From assembly GCA_016937175.1 (NCBI GenBank), contig JAFGWL010000056.1:202458-266457 (forward strand): 64,000 bases of DNA, written 5' to 3'. The stretch is from Candidatus Mcinerneyibacteriota bacterium (GTDB lineage: Bacteria > Macinerneyibacteriota > Macinerneyibacteria > Macinerneyibacteriales > DSCS01). How positions within the stretch are numbered: the stretch's first letter is position 1; the number at the start of each line of letters is the position of its first letter. Shown here in pieces: positions 47,769 to 59,286 of the stretch. A program made the position numbers and the translations under genes. The notes beneath the pieces are model-generated. The model searched no databases, was not told where the DNA came from, and saw only the letters and a program-made list of their open reading frames with translations.

Positions 47769-48695
47769 ATGCGTTATCAATCTATTCTTGAGACAATCGG
47801 AAAGACACCGTTGGTGCGGATCAACCGGTCCGGTTTTACCGGAGAACTCTATGCAAAACTGGAAGGGTTTAATCCCGGGGGCAGCATCAAGGACCGCGTT
47901 GCGGTACATATGATCAAAAAAGCCCTGGAATCCGGAGAGCTGAAAAGATCGATGACGATCCTTGAGGCCACATCAGGAAATACAGGGATCGGCCTGGCTA
48001 TGGCAGGAGCTGTGCTGGGGATCAAGGTCCATATTGTCATGAGCGAAGGCGTCTCTCCGGAGCGTGTCAGGATCCTTCAGGCTCTGGGGGCTGAGATCAC
48101 TTTCTCCCCGGCAGATCGTCACACAGACGGAGCGATTATCATGGCTGAACAGATCTTCCGCCGGGCTCCGGAACGTTTCTTCCGGCCGGACCAATTTTCC
48201 AATCCGGCCAATCCGGCCATCCACCGGGAAACCACAGCCCGTGAGATCTGGGAAGAGATGGAGGAAGAGGTCGATTTTGTCATAGCCGGCATGGGCAGTA
48301 CCGGAACTCTCATGGGATTTGCCGATTTCTTTGCCTCCAGGTCCACAAACGTCCGCATCATGGGTGTCCGCCCCGCTGTCGGCGAGACCATCGACGGTAT
48401 CAAGACATCCAAAACCAGTCTGACTCCGGCTCTCTATGAAGAGATGAAGATCGACAAGATCTATGAGATCAGACGACAAGAGTCCCTACAGGCTGCCCGA
48501 AGACTGATCAGGGAAGAAGGGATCTTTGCCGGAATAAGCGGAGGAGCCGTCTATGCAGCTTTCCTTCAGAATCAGCAGAAGCTTGAAAGGAAAAAGGGTG
48601 TCCTGGTGATAGCGGATAACAGCTTCCGTTACATGGAAAGCGGCCTCTTCGACCCCTCATGCTGTCGGGAGGAGACCCTGGCTGTCTGTCTTTGA
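47769..48695 (+). CDS. cysK: Cysteine synthase family enzyme (CysK/CysM)
   Basis: 308 residues, PLP fold-type II. NPGGSIKDRVA holds the PLP Lys41; EATSGNTGIGLAM is the substrate loop; GMGSTGTLMGF binds the phosphate. Likely forms cysteine from O-acetylserine (or O-phosphoserine) and sulfide; a cystathionine synthase role is possible, since no CBS domains are present but the KGVLVIADNSFRYM tail is a little unusual. AAGGAGGAG precedes the ATG. It lies behind a leader ORF with a Cys codon and just upstream of the methionine operon, so it may supply its sulfur. Confidence 0.88.
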   Translation: MRYQSILETIGKTPLVRINRSGFTGELYAKLEGFNPGGSIKDRVAVHMIKKALESGELKRSMTILEATSGNTGIGLAMAGAVLGIKVHIVMSEGVSPERVRILQALGAEITFSPADRHTDGAIIMAEQIFRRAPERFFRPDQFSNPANPAIHRETTAREIWEEMEEEVDFVIAGMGSTGTLMGFADFFASRSTNVRIMGVRPAVGETIDGIKTSKTSLTPALYEEMKIDKIYEIRRQESLQAARRLIREEGIFAGISGGAVYAAFLQNQQKLERKKGVLVIADNSFRYMESGLFDPSCCREETLAVCL

Positions 48696-48704
48696 AAAAA
48701 AAGC

Positions 48705-48732
48705 TTGATTCATTTCAGAATATGATTATAAT
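48705..48732 (+). promoter_or_regulatory. Promoter of the aspartate-to-methionine operon
   Basis: TTGATT (48705-48710), 16-bp spacer, TATAAT (48727-48732), right after the cysteine synthase stop. A leader with an ORF and hairpins (48749-48999) follows. Confidence 0.6.
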
Positions 48733-48762
48733 ACTTCCCACCACTTTAAGGAGGTGATGAAC

Positions 48763-48885
48763 TTGATTCATCTGAACTGCGTTAGTTCTGGCCCTTGTTT
48801 CAAAGAACCTGTCATTCTCTCACGCCACTACCTTCTTATTTTCAAAATGTTTATCCTCAACATGGTGATGTGCAGCATCGCCTGA
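48763..48885 (+). CDS. Leader ORF of the methionine operon
   Basis: A very strong ribosome site AAGGAGGTGATG (48749-48760) precedes TTG 48763 at good spacing (ATG 48757 is in the same frame but too close). The 40-codon ORF reads MIHLNCVSSGPCFKEPVILS, ends ...FKMFILNMVMCSIA and stops at TGA 48885. Three Met codons and a Cys codon fall in the last 13 codons. Its stop is 1 base before TCCTTTA, complementary to the aspartokinase ribosome site. It looks like a regulatory leader peptide, though Met-dependence is inference. Confidence 0.5.
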   Translation: MIHLNCVSSGPCFKEPVILSRHYLLIFKMFILNMVMCSIA

Positions 48886-49000
48886 TTCCTTTACCCGTTA
48901 CCCCTGTTTAAAAACATAGCCCAGAATTCGGCATCCTTCGCGAGCCTTTTTATTCATTCCATCAGGCTCGAGAAAATGCCTTTGTTTAAAGGAGATACTA
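48886..49000 (+). promoter_or_regulatory. Structured leader before the aspartokinase gene
   Basis: This stretch has no gene. TCCTTTA (48887-48893) complements the ribosome site TAAAGGA (48987-48993). A second hairpin is formed by GGCAT/ATGCC and CGAGCCT/AGGCTCG (48930-48980), with a T-run inside its loop. GGTGATG/CATCGCC (48864-48882) inside the leader ORF is a third. It does not match SAM-I, SAM-II or SAH riboswitch sequence signatures that I know. Confidence 0.45.
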
Positions 49001-50392
49001 ATGAACCGGATTATTAAATTCGGGGGGTCTGTCTTGACAGACGCTGACTCCCTTTATAAAGCTGCAACCATCGTCCAAGCCTACCCGGGACACCGCATAG
49101 TCGTCTGCTCCGCCCTCAAGGGAGTGACCTCCACTCTTTGTCAAGCCGTCTCTTCACACGATTGGGACCCCATCCGTATCAGAGACATCCTCATCAGTGA
49201 AAAAGAAAAGCACTTGGACCTGCTGCACAGTCTTGTCCCCCCAGACCGCAACAGCCGGACAGAATCTGAGATTACCCGACTTGTGGAAGAGGCCCTCACA
49301 AAGCTTCTTATGTTTTCGCCCCCCTTTCCCCCGGAAGAGACGGCCTTTGTCCCTCTTCTGGGAGAACGCCTTTCTTCTCTTCTCCTACACAGTGTCCTGA
49401 AAGCGCAGGGATCAGATGCGGTTATACTGCTTCCGGAAGAGATCCCTCTGGTCACCGACGGAAAGAGCGCTTATCCCCGGATCGACCTTTTGCTTTCCGG
49501 GACACTTTTCTCTACCCCATCAGGGGAAACATCAGTCACCCTGGTCCCGGGTTTCTACGCCCTCCATCCCTCGGGTGGAATAAGGCTTCTGGGCCGCGGG
49601 GGCAGCGACTATACCGCCGCCGCTCTGGGATTTCTTTTTAATGCTGAGAGTGTGGATCTCTGGAAAGATGTCGCCGGCTTTTTCAGCGGAGACCCCCGGG
49701 AACTCCCCGGAGCTCTCTTAAAAAGCCATTTGAATTACGAAGAGGCTGCTGAACTCTCCTATTACGGAGCTCATATTCTTCATCCCGAGACGATCCCTCC
49801 CCTCAGAGTGAAAAAGATCCCCCTGCGGCTCTTTTCTTTTAAAGACTCCTCCACCCCGGAAAGCCAGCATACTCTCATCGACCAGGCCGGTGACCCCGGG
49901 GGAGATATCATCACAGGTATTGCATCCACAGACAATATCGGTATCATAACAGTGAGAGGAAGCGATGTGGGAAATGAACCTGGGATTTTAGCCCGTCTGA
50001 CAGGGGAACTGACCTGCAGCGGGATCAATATCAAGTCTGTTCTGACGTCCCAGACCTCCATCAATATCCTCGTAGAGGCCGGAGACCTGGACATGGCTCA
50101 CCGGATCCTGGGAGAGGAAGGCTCTTCCGGGAGGGCTGTCGTCTACAGTGACCGTTTCAGCCTGGTTTCTCTGGTGGGAAACGGGATCAACTCGGCCCCT
50201 GGAATCGCAGCAAGGGCCTTCAATGCCCTTGCAGAGAAGAAGATCCCCGTCCATATGATCTGCGCCGGCGCTTCACCCGTCTCGGCCTATTTCATTGTAG
50301 AGCGCCCCCTCTGCAGGGACGCTGTCCGTACAGTCCATGATGCTTTTTTCAATACAAGGGAGGTTATTTATGAAACGCCAGCGGTCCATTGA
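49001..50392 (+). CDS. Aspartate kinase with C-terminal ACT domains
   Basis: 463 residues. IIKFGGSVLTDADSL is the kinase nucleotide-binding start (Lys6), and GRGGSDYTAAALG is the aspartate-binding signature. Two ACT-type regulatory domains follow (about 305-463: ITVRGSDVGNEPGILARLTG, INIKSVLTSQTSINILVEAG). It phosphorylates aspartate as the first step toward aspartate semialdehyde. AAAGGAG precedes the ATG. It is the first gene of the methionine operon; feedback regulation by an amino acid is likely but the ligand is unknown. Confidence 0.93.
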   Translation: MNRIIKFGGSVLTDADSLYKAATIVQAYPGHRIVVCSALKGVTSTLCQAVSSHDWDPIRIRDILISEKEKHLDLLHSLVPPDRNSRTESEITRLVEEALTKLLMFSPPFPPEETAFVPLLGERLSSLLLHSVLKAQGSDAVILLPEEIPLVTDGKSAYPRIDLLLSGTLFSTPSGETSVTLVPGFYALHPSGGIRLLGRGGSDYTAAALGFLFNAESVDLWKDVAGFFSGDPRELPGALLKSHLNYEEAAELSYYGAHILHPETIPPLRVKKIPLRLFSFKDSSTPESQHTLIDQAGDPGGDIITGIASTDNIGIITVRGSDVGNEPGILARLTGELTCSGINIKSVLTSQTSINILVEAGDLDMAHRILGEEGSSGRAVVYSDRFSLVSLVGNGINSAPGIAARAFNALAEKKIPVHMICAGASPVSAYFIVERPLCRDAVRTVHDAFFNTREVIYETPAVH

Positions 50393-51683
50393 AGAGATCA
50401 ATGAAAAGATTCTTAACGGCAGTGCCGTCGTTCTCACAGCTTCTGAGATCAGCGCTCTTTCTGCGAACCATTCCCCCGAAGATATCTTCGATGCCGTGGA
50501 TGTCGTCACGACCGGGACTTTTTCTCCCATGTGTTCCAGCGGAGCGTTTCTGAACTTCGGGCATACCTCTCCTCCGATAAAGATGAAAGAAGTCCGTCTC
50601 AACGGAGTCGAAGCCTATACAGGCCTGGCTGCCGTCGACGCCTATATCGGAGCAGCCCAGTCATCTGTCCGGGACCCCGCCTACGGAGGAGCCCACATCA
50701 TCGAGTCCCTGATCAAAGGAGAGAACGTCCTGCTGGAAGCAACGGGAAGTGTCACTGATTGCTATCCCTCCCCCTCCGATTCACGCCCCATAAGCCTGAA
50801 CACCATCAACGAGGCCTATCTTTACAATCCCAGGAACTGCTATCAGAATTATGCGGCAGCTGTCAATACTTCTCGGAAGACTCTTCGGACCTATATGGGC
50901 ACACTTCTCCCCGGGTCCCGAAATATCAACTATTGTACTTCGGGAGAGCTCTCCCCCCTTATGAACGATCCCGATCTCAGGACCATCGGAACAGGGACAA
51001 GAATCCTTCTCTGCGGCGGCCCGGGATATATTTCGGCACGGGGGACGCAGTTCAACACCCATAAAAAGAAAAACAGGTTCGGCCTCCCAGTGGAAGGGGC
51101 AGCCACCCTTGCTCTGACAGGCGACATGAGATCCATGAGCCCCCGTTTTGTCAAAGGGGCCTACATGCCCGGGTACGGGGTCACGCTTTTCGTCTCTGTA
51201 AGCATCCCCATTCCCCTTCTGGATACAGGCCTGGCATCCCGTGTGATGGTCACAAACGATCGGATCGAAATGGCTGTCCGTGATTTTGCAGATCCCGCAC
51301 ACGGACAGACTGCTCTTGTCCGTTTCAGCGACCTTGTATCGGGAGTTGTAGAGATCAACGGGAAAAAGAGCCGCACAGTACCTCTCTCCAGTTTTACCAT
51401 GGCGCGGGAGTCTGCCGAACTTCTGAAAACCTTGATACAAAAAGGAAGTTTCCTGCTCTCCGCCCCTGTGGAAAGTTATGACGTCGCTCCTCCGGCGGAG
51501 ACAGCTGCTGAAAAAACACCGCTCTCCTGCGCTCTTTGCGGGGCCTGTGTTGCTCTCTGCCCCGAAGAAGCCCTCTCTCTGGAGAACAATGAGATCCGAC
51601 TTGACGAAAAGCGCTGCTCCGGCTGCTTCCTCTGCAGGGAGATCTGCCCCTGCGGCCTGGCCAGAGGAGGAAGCCATGGATAG
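50370..51683 (+). CDS. L-aspartate semialdehyde sulfurtransferase (DUF39) with C-terminal ferredoxin domain
   Basis: 437 residues from ATG 50370 (GGGAGG upstream), overlapping the aspartokinase by 23 bp. The DUF39/COG1900 domain (about 1-355) includes TTGTFSPMCSSGAF (Cys55), ATGSVTDCYPSPSD (Cys131) and the GTRILLCGGPGYISARGTQF block. In methanogens this protein converts aspartate semialdehyde plus sulfide to homocysteine, and two conserved cysteines are required. Here the C-terminus adds CALCGACVALCPEEAL and KRCSGCFLCREICPCG, a two-cluster [4Fe-4S] ferredoxin, so both functions seen as separate proteins in Methanosarcina acetivorans are fused. No CBS domains. Confidence 0.9.
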   Translation: MKRQRSIEEINEKILNGSAVVLTASEISALSANHSPEDIFDAVDVVTTGTFSPMCSSGAFLNFGHTSPPIKMKEVRLNGVEAYTGLAAVDAYIGAAQSSVRDPAYGGAHIIESLIKGENVLLEATGSVTDCYPSPSDSRPISLNTINEAYLYNPRNCYQNYAAAVNTSRKTLRTYMGTLLPGSRNINYCTSGELSPLMNDPDLRTIGTGTRILLCGGPGYISARGTQFNTHKKKNRFGLPVEGAATLALTGDMRSMSPRFVKGAYMPGYGVTLFVSVSIPIPLLDTGLASRVMVTNDRIEMAVRDFADPAHGQTALVRFSDLVSGVVEINGKKSRTVPLSSFTMARESAELLKTLIQKGSFLLSAPVESYDVAPPAETAAEKTPLSCALCGACVALCPEEALSLENNEIRLDEKRCSGCFLCREICPCGLARGGSHG

Positions 51684-52428
51684 ATATACAGACCGTTTTT
51701 ACCGCTCTTTCGGCGATCACAACCGTCTTGTCTATTACCATGTCGTGGCCTGTGAAAGCGACCTGTGGATCGGTATCGATGCTTCTTCGGCGAATGATTC
51801 TCTCCCGGAAGCCGCCTTGGAATTGACAGTAGAGGCCAGGTCCGATGTCCTGAAAGCCATTGAAGAGTCCCCCGATTTTCGGACAGCCCTTTCTCCGCTT
51901 GAGGGCCACCCTTCCTTTCCTCAACCCATGACAGAGGCTTCCCGCAAGGCAGGGACAGGGCCCATGGCGGCTGTAGCCGGATTCATCGCAGACCGTGTCA
52001 ACGAAGGATTATGCAGCCTTTTCTCCCCGAAAAAACTCCTGGTGGAGAACGGAGGGGATATCAGCGCCTGGGCCGAAGACGAGATCAGGGTCGGGATCTT
52101 TGCCGGCCCGTCTCCCCTTTCGGGACGCCTGGGCGTGACAGTTCCCTGCCTCGGACAGCGCCGGGGGATCTGCACCTCATCCGGGAGCGTGGGGCATTCA
52201 CTCAGCTTCGGAAAGGCCGACGCAGCGGTGATCATCTGTGATTCAGCCGCCCTGGCTGACGCCTATGCTACCGCAGCAGCCAACCGCATCCACACACGGT
52301 CCGATCTCACTGTCGTAATCGAAGAGCTTAAAGCCGAGCCCCGTATTCTGGGAAGTATCCTCATCTTCGGTGAAGAGATCGCTGTAGCCGGCGGATGCCC
52401 TCTCTATGCTCGAAGGGAGGAGCCATGA
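51676..52428 (+). CDS. UPF0280/COG2122 protein (ApbE-like) of the homocysteine pathway
   Basis: 250 residues from ATG 51676 (GAGGAGG upstream), overlapping DUF39 by 8 bp. AGTGPMAAVAGFIADRVNEG, LVENGGDISAW and ICTSSGSVGHSLSFGKADA are the UPF0280 blocks. The family shares the ApbE-like fold and in methanogens is required, with DUF39 and a ferredoxin protein, for homocysteine synthesis. Its exact reaction is unknown; placement in this operon supports the same role here. Confidence 0.88.
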   Translation: MDRYTDRFYRSFGDHNRLVYYHVVACESDLWIGIDASSANDSLPEAALELTVEARSDVLKAIEESPDFRTALSPLEGHPSFPQPMTEASRKAGTGPMAAVAGFIADRVNEGLCSLFSPKKLLVENGGDISAWAEDEIRVGIFAGPSPLSGRLGVTVPCLGQRRGICTSSGSVGHSLSFGKADAAVIICDSAALADAYATAAANRIHTRSDLTVVIEELKAEPRILGSILIFGEEIAVAGGCPLYARREEP

Positions 52429-53387
52429 AAGTCACCGATGTTATCCGGAAGGGAGACAGTAAGCTCCTCTCCCTGGAGATCGTCCCTCCCACCCGGGGTT
52501 ATTCCCTTGACGAAGCTCTTGACCATACTGAACAGCTCATGGCCTTTCGCCCCGATTTTATCAATGTGACAACCCATCAGCCCCATGTGGTTCTTGAGGA
52601 GAAAAACGGAGAAGTCATCAGGCTCCAGAAGAGCAATAAATGCGGGACCGTAGGTGTCTGTTCGGCTTTAAAACACCGCCTGGGAATCGAAGCGATCCCT
52701 CATGTGATCTGCGGCGGGAACACCCGTTTCGATATAGAGGATAAATTGATCGATCTCAATTACCTTGGTTTTGACAACCTCTTTATTGTGAGAGGCGATC
52801 CTCTCCCGGGGCATAAAACATTCATGCCTCCCCGCGAAGGGCACGAATACGCTTCCGGGTTGGTCCGACAGGCCCGTAACCTCAATGAAGGGCTGTACAC
52901 TTCGATCCAGGAAAAAGGTGTCCCCACCGATTTCTGTATTGGAGTCGCCGGGTATCCGGAAAAACATTATGAATCGTTCAACCGGAACAAAGACCTGGAT
53001 CATCTGTCTGAAAAGATCGAAGCAGGGGCCCACTTTGTCATCACGCAGATGCTCTTCAGTGCAACTTTCTACATATCTTTCGTCGACGAACTGCTGAAAA
53101 GAGGACTTCAGATCCCTGTCATTCCGGGAATCAAACCGGTGACCCGTTTACAATCTCTGAAAAGGATCCCGGGAACCTTTCATATCGAGATCCCCCAGAG
53201 ACTTGTCTCTTCACTGGAAGCAGCACGCACACCGGCAGAAGAAGCCAAAGCCGGGACAGAATACATGGCCCGTCTGATCCGGGACCTGTTGGATGCCGGG
53301 GCGCCCGGTATCCATATCTTCACCATGGGCAGCGGAAAAAGCACACAGAGGCTTCTGGAGACAGCCTTTGGGAAAGGCGGGATCTGA
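52425..53387 (+). CDS. metF: 5,10-methylenetetrahydrofolate reductase
   Basis: 320 residues; ATGA overlap with the UPF0280 stop and GGAGGAGCC upstream. LSLEIVPPTRGYSLDEAL (catalytic Glu), FINVTTHQPHVV and DNLFIVRGDPLP match the MetF fold. It reduces methylene-THF to 5-methyl-THF, the methyl donor for MetH just downstream. The partner reductant (NADH or ferredoxin) cannot be read. Confidence 0.93.
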   Translation: MKVTDVIRKGDSKLLSLEIVPPTRGYSLDEALDHTEQLMAFRPDFINVTTHQPHVVLEEKNGEVIRLQKSNKCGTVGVCSALKHRLGIEAIPHVICGGNTRFDIEDKLIDLNYLGFDNLFIVRGDPLPGHKTFMPPREGHEYASGLVRQARNLNEGLYTSIQEKGVPTDFCIGVAGYPEKHYESFNRNKDLDHLSEKIEAGAHFVITQMLFSATFYISFVDELLKRGLQIPVIPGIKPVTRLQSLKRIPGTFHIEIPQRLVSSLEAARTPAEEAKAGTEYMARLIRDLLDAGAPGIHIFTMGSGKSTQRLLETAFGKGGI

Positions 53388-53388
53388 C

Positions 53389-56300
53389 ATGAAGGCCTTA
53401 CTGAAAGACCTGCTTTTGAATAAGACCCTGTTGGGGGACGGTGCCATGGGTACCTCGATCCAGGCCTGGTTAAACGGAGAAAACCAAAAAGGTTCCAATG
53501 AACTCCTGAATATCACAGCGCCAGACTTGATCCGCGGGATTCACAGGGATTTTCTCCTGGCCGGAAGCGATATTATCGAAACGAACACTTTCGGCGCTTC
53601 AGCCCTCTCTCTCAGAGATTACGGTTTGGAAGAACGCACTTTTGAAATCAATCAAGCCGCCGCTTTTTTAGCCCGTAAGTGCGCGGATACAGAATCGACT
53701 GTTTCCAAACCCCGTTTTGTGGCCGGATCTATCGGCCCTACGGGTTACCTTCCTTCTCTGGGACAGGTCTCTTTTGATACCCTTTATGAAAGCTATAAAA
53801 CCCAGTGCAGAGGCCTAATTCAGGGAGGAATCGACTATTTCCTGATCGAAACGTGTCAGGATCTGCTTCAGGTCAAGGTGGCTCTCATCGCCGCCCGGGA
53901 TGCTGCTCTGGAAAACGGAAAAAAGATCCCTGCTGCTGTCTCCCTTTCCCTTGAGAAGGGACGCCTGATCACCGGTTCTGATATCAAAACCATCGTGACC
54001 GTCCTGGAGCCTTTCGACCTGCTCTATCTCGGGTTCAACTGCGGTAATGGATTCGAAGGCCTTGAAGAGGCCCTATCCTCTTTAGGCCGATATTCTCCCT
54101 ACCCGTTGGCCCTTATGCCCAATGCCGGCTTCCCTGAAGTGAAAAACGGCCATCTCTTTTATTCCATGACACCGGAAGAATATAGCAGCGAAATAATACG
54201 GCTCATGGAGATCATCCCGCTCTCGCTTGTTGGCGGATGCTGCGGGACCACTCCGGCTCATATTCAAGCCTTAAAAAAAGACCTTGACCATTACCCTCTG
54301 AAGCTCCGGAAAAAACCGCTAAAAGAGGCCCGTCTGGCCTCTCTCTTCAAAGCTGTCGACATCAAGACATCCCGCCCCCCCTTTCTTATAGGAGAGCGCT
54401 CCAACACTCAGGGGAGCAAAAGATTTAAAGAGCTTTTGCTGAAAGATGATTTCGACTCTATGATCGTTACAGCTTTGGAGCAGGAAAGATCAGGAGCCGC
54501 CGCATTGGATCTCTGCTGCGTTATCCCCGGACGCGATGAGGTAAGGGATCTTTCGCGCTTTGTCGAAGAGCTTAACCGGCAGGCCGGGACACCTCTTTGT
54601 CTTGACACGGTCAACACCGAAGCTTTGGAAGAAGCCCTGAAAAGGGTAAGCGGGAAACCCCTTATCAATTCAGTACATTTGAAGGATAAGGCGCAGGCCG
54701 AGAAGATCTTCACTCTGGCAAGAAGGTTCGGCGCGTCCCTGATCTGCCTGGCCATGGATCAACAAGGGATGGCTCTCACTTCACAGGACAAGATCGAAAA
54801 GTCAGAGAAGATCTATTCTCTGGCTGTCGATGAATATGGATTAGCGCCCGAAGACCTTTTCTTCGATATGCTGACCTTCACCATCGCTTCAGATACGGAG
54901 CTCAATTCAGCCTATGAGACACTAACAGCTCTGAAGGAGTTTAAAAAACGTCATCCGCGGACGAATACGATCCTGGGAGTCAGCAACGTCTCCCACGGGC
55001 TCAAACCGTTCCCACGAAAAATCCTCAACTCACTTTTTCTCCAGTCAGCAGTGGAACATGGCCTTGATGCCTCCCTTGTCCACGCCGGAAACCTTACGCC
55101 TCTTCATCACTTCCCTGAAAAACTTATCACTTTGGGTCGGACTCTCCTTCTCTCTCCGCAGCCTGGCTCTGAACGTTTAACCGATTTTCTTCGACTATGT
55201 GACACGGCAACGGGAGCACTAGAACAAAATAAATCCTCTAAGAAAGAAAAACTCACTCTTTTTCAGGCCATCATCGACGGCCGTAAAGAGGAATCCCTGG
55301 ACTTGGTTCAAAAAGAACTCAAGACGAAGAAAGCAGAAAATATTATCGAAGAGGTTATCATCCCGGCTATGGAAGAAGTAGGACGCCTCTTTGAATCCAA
55401 TCAACTGCAGCTCCCTTTCGTCCTTCGTTCTTCTGAGACCGCGAAAAAGGCTCTGGACCTTCTTTCTGCCCATTTATCAGAACGAAAACATAAGGGGACG
55501 ATTCTTCTGGCCACTGTTTACGGCGATGTCCACGATATCGGCAAAAACTTAAGTGCCATTATCTTCCGCAATCACGGTTATCGTGTCGTTGATATCGGGG
55601 TCGACCGGTCGGCAGAAGAGATCATTGATGCCGTGAAGACCCATGAGCCTGATGCGGTGGGCCTGAGCGGACTTTTGGCCAATTCAGCGATTTATTTCGG
55701 AACGGTTTTATCCCTCTTTGCAAAAAACGACTTGACCTTGCCGGTTCTCTGCGGAGGAGCAGCCCTGACCAGGGATTTTACAGAAAACCATCTGGCCCCT
55801 CTCTATAACGGGGGCGTCTATAAAGCTGATGATGCTTTCGATGCTATCCGGTTTTTAAGACAACACCCTCTTCCTCAAACGACGAAATCGTGTGAGGTAT
55901 CCTGCGCTGAAAAAAATGAACGGGGGAAAACCTTAAACCAAAGGATGGGTTCAGAAAGAGTTAACCAGGTCCACTATCCGGTCGAGGCGATTCTTCCCTT
56001 CCTGAATAATAGCAGGCTTTTCAAAATCCGCTGGGGAGGACTTGATCCCGATACGGGAAACGAGGAGTTAACCCGCCTTCTGCAAAAAGAAGGACTCTAC
56101 CAAAGCATCAAAGGCGTATTCAGCTCTTATCCCTGCTTACGGGACAGGGAGAGCCTTACCCTTTTTGACTCAGAAGGAAAGCCTGTCACCACATTCCGTT
56201 TTCCCAGGGACACAAGCGGTGAGAATCGATGCATCACCGACTTTTTCCGGGAAGAAGGAGACCATATCACTCTCTTTCTTGTCACAGCCGGTCCGGAAAT

Positions 56301-56637
56301 CGCCCGTGAAGAAGCCCGCCTTCTGGAAAAGGATTCTTACTATGATTATTACCTCTTACATGGATTGGGAACGGAACTGGCCGAAGCCGCCGCCGCCTGC
56401 CTGAACGACGAGTTAAAAAAGAAAGAGGGCCCATCCTTACGTTTCGGTTTCGGCTATCCCGCCTGCCCCGATCTGAAATACCAGGAGACGATCTGTCGGC
56501 TGCTGCAAGCCGGATCTATCGGGGTCTCCGTGACGCCCTCCTTTCAGCTTATCCCCGAGCTAAGCACCGGAGGATTTATGATCCACAATGAAAAAGCCTT
56601 TTATTTTCCGATGAAGGACAAAGGAGGATTACAATGA
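53389..56637 (+). CDS. metH: Cobalamin-dependent methionine synthase, full-length
   Basis: 1082 residues. LLGDGAMGTSIQ opens the homocysteine domain; Zn ligands are Cys218 (NCGNG) and Cys284-Cys285 (GGCCGTTPAH). A pterin-binding domain (about 310-580) is followed by the B12 cap (LFESNQLQLPFVLRSSETAKK) and DVHDIGKN with axial His715. The C-terminal AdoMet reactivation domain ends FGYPACPDLKYQETI...GVSVTPSFQLIPELSTGG. It methylates homocysteine using 5-methyl-THF. The AdoMet domain being present makes it E. coli-like rather than a split form. It starts 1 bp after the metF stop and is followed by asd with a 4-bp overlap. Confidence 0.95.
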   Translation: MKALLKDLLLNKTLLGDGAMGTSIQAWLNGENQKGSNELLNITAPDLIRGIHRDFLLAGSDIIETNTFGASALSLRDYGLEERTFEINQAAAFLARKCADTESTVSKPRFVAGSIGPTGYLPSLGQVSFDTLYESYKTQCRGLIQGGIDYFLIETCQDLLQVKVALIAARDAALENGKKIPAAVSLSLEKGRLITGSDIKTIVTVLEPFDLLYLGFNCGNGFEGLEEALSSLGRYSPYPLALMPNAGFPEVKNGHLFYSMTPEEYSSEIIRLMEIIPLSLVGGCCGTTPAHIQALKKDLDHYPLKLRKKPLKEARLASLFKAVDIKTSRPPFLIGERSNTQGSKRFKELLLKDDFDSMIVTALEQERSGAAALDLCCVIPGRDEVRDLSRFVEELNRQAGTPLCLDTVNTEALEEALKRVSGKPLINSVHLKDKAQAEKIFTLARRFGASLICLAMDQQGMALTSQDKIEKSEKIYSLAVDEYGLAPEDLFFDMLTFTIASDTELNSAYETLTALKEFKKRHPRTNTILGVSNVSHGLKPFPRKILNSLFLQSAVEHGLDASLVHAGNLTPLHHFPEKLITLGRTLLLSPQPGSERLTDFLRLCDTATGALEQNKSSKKEKLTLFQAIIDGRKEESLDLVQKELKTKKAENIIEEVIIPAMEEVGRLFESNQLQLPFVLRSSETAKKALDLLSAHLSERKHKGTILLATVYGDVHDIGKNLSAIIFRNHGYRVVDIGVDRSAEEIIDAVKTHEPDAVGLSGLLANSAIYFGTVLSLFAKNDLTLPVLCGGAALTRDFTENHLAPLYNGGVYKADDAFDAIRFLRQHPLPQTTKSCEVSCAEKNERGKTLNQRMGSERVNQVHYPVEAILPFLNNSRLFKIRWGGLDPDTGNEELTRLLQKEGLYQSIKGVFSSYPCLRDRESLTLFDSEGKPVTTFRFPRDTSGENRCITDFFREEGDHITLFLVTAGPEIAREEARLLEKDSYYDYYLLHGLGTELAEAAAACLNDELKKKEGPSLRFGFGYPACPDLKYQETICRLLQAGSIGVSVTPSFQLIPELSTGGFMIHNEKAFYFPMKDKGGLQ

Positions 56638-57656
56638 AGATCGATGCCGCTCTCCTGGGAGCCACAGGGGCTGTCGGGCAGAAATTTATCCAACTTCTCC
56701 GGGGACATCCCTTGTTCAGGCTTACAGAACTCTTTGCTTCCGAACGCTCGGCGGGTAAATCTTACGGCGAAGCAGTGACCTGGAAACTCTCTGCCCCTCC
56801 GGATCCTGCCATCGAAGCTCTTCCTGTTTTCTCCTGCGATCAGGAGCCCCGGGCCAGGCTTGTCTTCTCCGCCCTTGATGCCTCGGCTGCCGGGCCCATA
56901 GAAAGCCGCCTTGTGAGCCTGGGACATCTTGTCATCTCCAACGCGAGAAACCACCGGATGGATAGCGATGTCCCCATCATGATCCCCGAGATAAACGGAT
57001 CTCTTCTGAACAAGGTTTCTCCAAACAAGGGCGCTCTGATCACAAACCCCAACTGTTCCACAGCAGGGCTGGCGCTCTCCCTCTTTCCTCTCCACCGTGC
57101 TTTCATCCTTCAGTCCGTTCATACAGTGACAATGCAGGCCTTTTCAGGCGCAGGATATCCGGGCCTCTCTGCCTGGGATATCGTAGGCAACGTCATCCCC
57201 TTCATCGACGGGGAAGAAGAGAAGATCGAACAGGAGCTTCCCAAGATCTTCGGCCGTTATAACGGAAAGAGCTTCAGACCGGCTCCCATTTCTGTCACGG
57301 CCTCCTGTAACCGTGTCCCGGTCCGTGAAGGCCATCTCCTCGATGTCCGGGCATCTTTTGAAAAGCCTTTCACTCTGGAAAAAATACGGGAGGAGTGGGC
57401 TCTGTTCCGCTCTGAAGCGCCTTATCTCACTCTCCCTTCATCTCCCGGATCTCCGGTTATATACATCCCTACAGCGGATATGCCCCAACCCTCTCTTTTT
57501 CATGAGAAGAACAGTATGAGTGTCTATACAGGACGCCTGAAGGCCCTCTCAGAAAAAGAGATCTGTTTTAAGGCTCTTGTCCACAACACAGTCAGGGGAG
57601 CAGCAGGAAACGCACTCCTAATAGCTGAGAGAGCGGCCTTAATCGGCCTACTTTGA
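56634..57656 (+). CDS. asd: Aspartate-semialdehyde dehydrogenase (archaeal/fungal-type)
   Basis: 340 residues; ATGA overlap with metH and AAAGGAGG upstream. LLGATGAVGQKFIQLL binds NADP; NPNCSTAGLAL carries catalytic Cys141, in the NCSTxGL form of the archaeal/yeast Asd group rather than the E. coli type. It produces aspartate semialdehyde from aspartyl phosphate, the substrate of the DUF39 protein in the same operon. Last gene; the tryptophan promoter follows within 10 bp. Confidence 0.93.
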   Translation: MKIDAALLGATGAVGQKFIQLLRGHPLFRLTELFASERSAGKSYGEAVTWKLSAPPDPAIEALPVFSCDQEPRARLVFSALDASAAGPIESRLVSLGHLVISNARNHRMDSDVPIMIPEINGSLLNKVSPNKGALITNPNCSTAGLALSLFPLHRAFILQSVHTVTMQAFSGAGYPGLSAWDIVGNVIPFIDGEEEKIEQELPKIFGRYNGKSFRPAPISVTASCNRVPVREGHLLDVRASFEKPFTLEKIREEWALFRSEAPYLTLPSSPGSPVIYIPTADMPQPSLFHEKNSMSVYTGRLKALSEKEICFKALVHNTVRGAAGNALLIAERAALIGLL

Positions 57657-57665
57657 TCTTTTTCC

Positions 57666-57693
57666 TTGACAGCTCTTTTTATGCAGTTACTAT
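57666..57693 (+). promoter_or_regulatory. trpB promoter
   Basis: TTGACA (57666-57671), 16-bp spacer, TACTAT (57688-57693). The -10 lies inside the first of two palindromic operators, so repressor binding would block RNA polymerase. Confidence 0.6.
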
Positions 57694-57721
57694 TCATAGA
57701 AACGTTACTATAAATAGTAAC
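57686..57721 (+). promoter_or_regulatory. Tandem TrpR-type operators
   Basis: GTTACTATTCATAGAAAC (57686-57703, one mismatch per half) and GTTACTATAAATAGTAAC (57704-57721, perfect) abut exactly, period 18 bp. They resemble TrpR operator half-sites (GTACTAG-type) and sit over the -10 and start of trpB, with trpR encoded downstream. Confidence 0.7.
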
Positions 57722-57737
57722 ACTGAAAGGAGCTTAT

Positions 57738-58937
57738 ATGAAGCCACAGACGATGCCTGATATCCGGGGGTATTTCGGAGAGTATGGAGGAGCCTACCTT
57801 CCCGAGGTACTCCAGGGGATCATGGCAGAGATCACGGAAGCCTATGAGGAGTGCCGTCGCGATCCCGGTTTTCAACAGGAGCTGAGCCAGGCCCTCACTC
57901 ACTATGTAGGACGGCCCTCCCCTCTTTATTTTGCCTCTAACTTGTCCCAAGGGTGCTCAGCGGCCAGGATCTATCTGAAGCGGGAAGACTTGAATCACAC
58001 CGGGGCTCATAAGATCAATCACTGCCTGGGGGAGGCCCTTTTAGCCCGCCGCATGGGTAAAAAGAAGCTCATCGCTGAGACCGGCGCCGGCCAGCATGGA
58101 GTGGCTCTGGCCACGGCTGCAGCTTTGACAGGCATGGAATGTGATATCTATATGGGCCAGATCGACATTGAAAAAGAGCACCCCAACGTCTCCCGCATGA
58201 AGATCCTGGGAGCCCATGTCATCCCTGTGACTACCAATACACAAAGCCTCAAAGATGCTGTTGATGCAGCCTTCGAAGCTTATCTGAAAGACCCGGTGAA
58301 CCAATTCTATGCCATCGGATCTGTTGTGGGCCCTCATCCCTTTCCCCGGATGGTACGCGATTTTCAGTCCGTAGTCGGGCGCGAAGCCAAAGAACAATTT
58401 TTTGCGATGACAGGCCGTCTCCCTGACAGTGTCATCGCCTGTGTCGGAGGAGGGTCCAACGCCATGGGCATCTTCAGCGCCTTTCTGGATGAACCGTCTG
58501 TATCCCTCATCGGAGTGGAGCCTTCAGGACGCGGGTTCAAGGACGGGGATCATGCAGCGACGCTCACAAAAGGGCGCCCGGGCATCCTCCACGGGTTCCG
58601 CTCCTATCTCCTTCAGGATGATGCCGGCGAACCTCTTCCCGTCTATTCTGTCGCCAGCGGGCTGGATTATCCGGGTGTGGGCCCTGAACACAGCTACCTC
58701 AAGGACATGGGGCGGGCGGCTTATAAGACGATCTCCGATGAAGAAGCGATCGACGCCTTCTTCATACTCTCCAGGGCAGAAGGGATCATTCCGGCCATCG
58801 AATCGGCACACGCGGTAGCCTACGCCATGAAGCGCGCACGCGAAAACCCCGGAGAATCCATCCTGGTCAACCTGTCAGGCCGCGGAGATAAAGACGTCGA
58901 TTTTGTACTGGAGCATTACAAAAGGGATGATTTCTGA
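57738..58937 (+). CDS. trpB: Tryptophan synthase beta chain
   Basis: 399 residues of the TrpB1 group. [15 protein letters not shown] opens it, [18 protein letters not shown] holds PLP Lys92, and [17 protein letters not shown] and [11 protein letters not shown] bind phosphate. It joins indole and serine to tryptophan. No trpA or other trp genes flank it, so it would salvage indole from the environment, as proposed for lone TrpB1 genes elsewhere. GAAAGGAG precedes the ATG. Confidence 0.95.
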
Positions 58938-58956
58938 AGAGATGAGTGTTCGCTGT

Positions 58957-58985
58957 TTGACAAATCCCCTGTTCTTTACTAAAAT
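58957..58985 (+). promoter_or_regulatory. trpR promoter
   Basis: TTGACA (58957-58962), 17-bp spacer, TAAAAT (58980-58985), between the trpB stop and the trpR ATG. No copy of the trpB operator was seen here. Confidence 0.55.
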
Positions 58986-59007
58986 AAGAGATGTAAAGGA
59001 CAGGGGT

Positions 59008-59286
59008 ATGAAAATATATCGACTGAATGAAATCGCCCGGACGCTTGCTTCCATTGAAGACCCTCAGGTCATCGAGGATTTTATGAACTCCATTCTTACG
59101 GAGAAAGAGGTCTTTGACATCTCCTCCCGGTGGGAACTGGTGAAATATCTGGATGAAGGTGTCTCACAACGGACTATCGCCTCTGAACTGGGCTTAAGCC
59201 TCTGCAAAATCACCCGGGGTTCAAAAGAACTTCATAAGAACCACTCTGCTTTCAAAAAAGTACTGGACGCTTTCAAGAAACTTTAA
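59008..59286 (+). CDS. trpR: Trp repressor family protein
   Basis: 92 residues from ATG 59008 (AAAGGACAG upstream). EVFDISSRWELVKYLDEGVS and QRTIASELGLSLCKITRGSK, with the ITRGSKEL turn, match the TrpR helix-turn-helix. As an aporepressor it binds tryptophan and shuts operators such as those before trpB. It is slightly shorter than E. coli TrpR (108). Its own promoter follows trpB. Confidence 0.9.
   Translation: MKIYRLNEIARTLASIEDPQVIEDFMNSILTEKEVFDISSRWELVKYLDEGVSQRTIASELGLSLCKITRGSKELHKNHSAFKKVLDAFKKL

Follow-up and report, generated by a model that had tools for sequence, protein, structure and literature searches.

A six-gene operon predicted to make methionine from aspartate without homoserine in a Candidatus Mcinerneyibacteriota bacterium

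Can a bacterium carry, in one operon, everything that is needed to convert aspartate into methionine without passing through homoserine? This question is raised by a locus in a 64,000-nt stretch of DNA (hereafter the window), the end of contig 6 in a draft genome of a Candidatus Mcinerneyibacteriota bacterium (G000; 1.88 Mb, 71 contigs, 98.7% complete). In M. acetivorans and D. vulgaris, a DUF39 protein, a ferredoxin protein and a COG2122 protein are involved in a homocysteine synthesis that does not pass through homoserine (PMC5764234; PMC12068725). An earlier note on this DNA had described the route as that of methanogens; it is indeed known there, but the description understates its range, since the homoserine-free route has also been shown genetically in a bacterium, Desulfovibrio vulgaris (PMC5764234).

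The operon spans 49001–57656 on the forward strand and comprises six intact genes. The first encodes an aspartokinase (AK; 49001–50392, 463 aa) with an AK domain and two ACT domains (PF00696, ACT_9 and ACT_7), matching TIGR00657 at 274 bits, over the cut-off. The second (50370–51683, 437 aa) encodes a predicted DUF39/COG1900a (HcyBio) L-aspartate-semialdehyde sulfurtransferase with a fused C-terminal 2[4Fe-4S] ferredoxin (Fer4_10), and the third (51676–52428, 250 aa) a COG2122/UPF0280-like protein that presumably delivers sulfur to DUF39. These are followed by the genes for methylenetetrahydrofolate reductase MetF (52425–53387, 320 aa; PF02219, 187 bits; TIGR00676, 235 bits), cobalamin-dependent methionine synthase MetH (53389–56637, 1082 aa; TIGR02082, 789 bits) and aspartate-semialdehyde dehydrogenase Asd (56634–57656, 340 aa; TIGR00978, 364 bits, over the cut-off). 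The first three junctions are overlaps of 23, 8 and 4 nt, metF and metH are spaced by 1 nt, and metH and asd overlap by 4 nt. A clear or strong Shine-Dalgarno sequence precedes five of the six genes, that of metH being weak. Signature motifs are seen in AK (KFGGSV), Asd (NPNC) and MetH (DxHDxG and GGCCG), and MetH has all five Pfam domains (PF02574, PF00809, PF02607, PF02310 and PF02965), with a divergent activation domain (71 bits). Profile matches, motifs and intact overlapping frames thus bear out the gene content and order that the earlier note had proposed.

Together, the six proteins cover every step from aspartate to methionine. AK and Asd would convert aspartate into aspartate semialdehyde. 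A persulfide on Cys55 of DUF39, formed with assistance from the COG2122-like protein, would then supply the sulfur that replaces the aldehyde oxygen, with electrons from the fused ferredoxin, giving homocysteine. MetF would provide methyl-THF, with which MetH would methylate homocysteine to methionine. For its sulfur and its reductant, the pathway draws on sources beyond the operon. Directly 5′ of the leader that precedes AK lies a gene for a CysK/CysM-type cysteine synthase (47769–48695, forward strand; TIGR01136, 310 bits, under the cut-off), probably a functional neighbour in sulfide assimilation and a candidate operon member only. We infer that the six genes are transcribed together as one unit, and we put at about 0.87 the probability that this unit makes methionine from aspartate without homoserine, with AK and Asd serving methionine alone. 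We read the locus as a complete, dedicated and possibly differently regulated variant of the known pathway, its enzyme activities and regulation being predictions from the genes.

The earlier note had named a complete homoserine/cystathionine route elsewhere in the genome as part of what would overturn its reading. Profile searches revealed no homoserine dehydrogenase (PF00742) in G000, nor in G001, a genome of the same genus (hereafter the sister genome) that carries the same six-gene set split over two contigs. No full-length match to the sulfhydrylase/cystathionine enzymes of PF01053 was found in G000, only partial ones of at most 31 bits that look like other PLP enzymes; true PF01053 members are present in the genomes G002 and G003. 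Since both hom and a full-length PF01053 gene are missing, and MetE as well, no classical homocysteine route (hom plus an acyl-homoserine sulfhydrylase or MetB/MetC) is visible in G000, and the homoserine-free reading is supported. Single absences from a draft in 71 contigs are not proof, though for hom the sister genome agrees. Both genomes of the genus, despite having no homoserine dehydrogenase, retain a threonine-synthase-like gene (L112:1309–2520, contig C44 of G000; 139 bits, under the cut-off for thrC), a hint that a source of homoserine phosphate may have escaped the searches.

The identity of the DUF39 protein is central to this reading. It matches PF01837, now named HcyBio, at 435 bits, and its C-terminal ferredoxin part contains eight cluster cysteines. 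In the archaeal L-ASST, Cys54 is essential and Cys131 is a second conserved cysteine (PMC12068725). The corresponding residues here, Cys55 and Cys131, are kept in 100% and 99%, respectively, of 81 aligned relatives; Cys54 was equated with Cys55 through archaeal relatives and the published positions, the M. acetivorans sequence itself being absent from the alignment. What marks the L-ASST pathway, i.e., a COG1900a domain with its cysteines, an encoded ferredoxin donor and a COG2122 protein, is all present in the operon, as in the characterised archaeal system. The window's version differs from that system in that the ferredoxin is fused into one chain, that NIL and CBS domains are absent and that DUF39 shares its operon with AK, Asd, MetF and MetH.

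Fusion to a ferredoxin and the lack of CBS are also features of the paralogue MMP16/ComF, a coenzyme M synthase (COG1900d) that combines DUF39 and ferredoxin in one protein and acts on sulfoacetaldehyde (PMC12068725). The operon protein could accordingly act on another aldehyde, such as sulfoacetaldehyde on the way to coenzyme M, its place in a methionine operon being secondary, and the coenzyme M synthase model TIGR03287 does match it at 135 bits. That score is far under the cut-off of 364, however, and whereas the ferredoxin of MMP16 is inserted in the DUF39 domain and its cysteines are different, the operon protein carries its ferredoxin at the C-terminus and has the COG1900a pair Cys55 and Cys131. 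Neither mark of MMP16, an above-cut-off TIGR03287 score or an inserted ferredoxin, is thus found. Moreover, the neighbours AK, Asd, MetF and MetH are kept in the sister genome, and no other homocysteine route was found. On the TIGR03287 score, the cysteines and the ferredoxin position, we rejected an MMP16 function as the best reading and regard it as highly improbable, and take the protein to be an aspartate-semialdehyde sulfurtransferase.

Methionine and SAM are the presumed ligands of NIL and CBS (PMC12068725); having neither domain, the DUF39 protein here lacks both presumed sensors. In the characterised examples, the ferredoxin subunit bears a NIL domain with a regulatory rather than catalytic role. 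This domain is missing not only from the operon; profile searches with PF09383 found none in G000 or G001. A ferredoxin could be read in 63 bacterial DUF39 loci: it is a separate long protein classed as NIL type in 54 (two of these confirmed with Pfam), fused in five, and short and bare in four. NIL-less forms recur in other lineages, and the absence of NIL therefore marks a variant. A single origin of the fused ferredoxin was ruled out (AU test p 6e-5; three changes on the tree). AK is linked to DUF39 in four of the five fused-ferredoxin loci vs one of the 58 others, as raw counts; a tie between NIL loss and AK linkage is unproven, because at most four well-supported independent contrasts are available.

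The COG2122-like protein has no Pfam match and reaches 197 bits with the PRK04334 model NF003323 (E 4e-58), against a cut-off of 271. Its gene adjoins that of DUF39, as it does in most of the related bacterial loci, and the name COG2122/UPF0280 is given on these sub-cut-off PRK04334 models together with the position beside DUF39.

Are AK and Asd devoted to methionine, as the earlier note had it, or shared with other branches? Both are the only copies in G000: a weak second AK match in the profile search proved to be PyrH, and PF02774 (Asd) has a single match. They could thus be general-purpose enzymes that merely sit in a methionine operon and feed other branches too, and any such branch would need precisely these copies. 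Yet G000 has neither dapA nor homoserine dehydrogenase, and the sister genome has the same AK and Asd genes in addition to a distinct AK and Asd for lysine. Identity between the operon AK and that lysine AK is only 27%, and the operon AK forms one clade (support 96/97) with AKs encoded directly 5′ of DUF39 in Fervidobacterium, Clostridia and Neomarinimicrobiota metagenome-assembled genomes (MAGs). This DUF39-linked clade is separate from E. coli LysC, ThrA and MetL and from the lysine AK of G001, itself grouped with LysC (86/95), in a small tree of 11 rows with some long branches and a fragment as the Neomarinimicrobiota sequence. We therefore consider shared use very unlikely: with the homoserine and DAP branches missing, no further product of aspartate semialdehyde is known in G000, and AK and Asd would serve methionine alone. 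The description as dedicated enzymes thus holds in kind, as the second AK and Asd beside the lysine set of G001 illustrate, but in G000 there is no lysine operon from which to set its sole copies apart. The claim that their place in a methionine operon is unusual needs softening, too, because MAGs of Thermotogota, Bacillota and Neomarinimicrobiota also have AK beside DUF39.

In G001, a lysine operon (Asd-AK-dapB-dapA-dapD-aminotransferase-lysA) lies ~7 kb beyond the methionine operon. The corresponding ~9-kb lysine/DAP block (L103:730–9979) is absent from G000, where the DeaD and membrane-protein genes that flank it in G001 stand 187 nt apart with no lysine gene left between them (contig C56, L109:2980–3168). 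As both flanking genes are joined inside one contig, the absence is real and an assembly gap is ruled out as its cause. Loss in G000 and gain in G001 are both possible, because dapA is likewise missing from G002 (88% complete), the third genome of the phylum. The missing DAP operon raises the question of which diamino acid G000 uses in its peptidoglycan. As a side observation, a public MAG labelled ‘Bacillota bacterium SpSt-1200’ (L008, contig C55 of G001) falls within the genus of the window's genome, in a phylum for which three genomes are available, which makes its Bacillota label doubtful.

With no dapA and no homoserine dehydrogenase, lysine must come from outside or from another route in this organism, and threonine probably too. 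This would also suit a general amino-acid auxotroph that imports most of its methionine and keeps the operon for backup or salvage. But all six genes are intact and kept in the sister genome, AK and Asd would serve no purpose unless they led to methionine, and a MetN-type transporter with a NIL domain is absent from G000. We judge predominant import to be unlikely, and favour synthesis by the operon as the main source of methionine.

How would such a pathway be controlled without NIL and CBS? Feedback could act through the ACT domains of AK, which we hypothesise to be the likeliest site, or through transcription. A more speculative extension, towards which we lean less than against, is that a ‘methionine-only’ aspartate pathway is widely scattered, in which the DUF39-linked AK clade took over feedback (by methionine or SAM at its ACT domains) where the sulfurtransferase has no NIL or CBS, and which in this organism would be the sole aspartate-semialdehyde pathway.

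The closest comparisons place the operon as follows. The DUF39, NIL-ferredoxin and COG2122 proteins of D. vulgaris Miyazaki F likewise serve bacterial homocysteine synthesis with no homoserine intermediate (PMC5764234), but their genes (DvMF_1464, DvMF_0262 and DvMF_0044) are non-adjacent by number, whereas those of the window share one operon with AK and Asd; D. vulgaris keeps homoserine dehydrogenase for threonine, whereas G000 has none. A Fervidobacterium MAG (L009; AK-DUF39-COG2122-MetF-MetH) and a Clostridia MAG (L049; AK-DUF39-COG2122-Asd) have the same gene order as far as each goes, an AK of the same clade and the fused ferredoxin. Neither locus has all six genes, though, and their genomes, like that of the Neomarinimicrobiota locus L037, each encode at least one further AK elsewhere. 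The pathway itself is known; three things appear to be new: an operon that is complete, an AK clade linked to DUF39 and a genome with its aspartate family apparently reduced to methionine alone, an arrangement that was not found described in the literature searched, which did not extend to subscription papers. The operon would be a self-contained cassette for the homoserine-free route. Since lysine and homoserine branches that might blur the outcome are absent, transfer of this single operon would allow tests of the whole path from aspartate to methionine and of COG2122 function. It is also a candidate case of control shifted from the sulfurtransferase to the aspartokinase.

The 305-nt leader between cysK and AK (48696–49000, forward strand) contains a promoter-like site (48705–48732), a short open frame (48757–48885) and a hairpin (48864–48882). 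The frame has a Shine-Dalgarno sequence, includes three Met codons towards its end and finishes in KMFILNMVMCSIA over the hairpin; frame and hairpin together are a possible methionine-codon attenuator. The leader folds weakly better than its shuffles (z -1.83), and promoter-like sites in it are no more numerous than in shuffles. No SAM riboswitch or other Rfam element was found 5′ of the operon, and the start of the operon AK of the sister genome was not found among the 80 contig ends of G001.

On the 3′ side of the operon (57666–57738 and 58903–59286), trpB is preceded by a promoter-like site of its own and by two palindromes next to each other (57686–57703 and 57704–57721). Since these elements are conserved 5′ of trpB in the sister genome, trpB is probably a separate unit. 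A TrpR-family gene comes after trpB, which suggests that trpB and trpR form an autoregulated unit.
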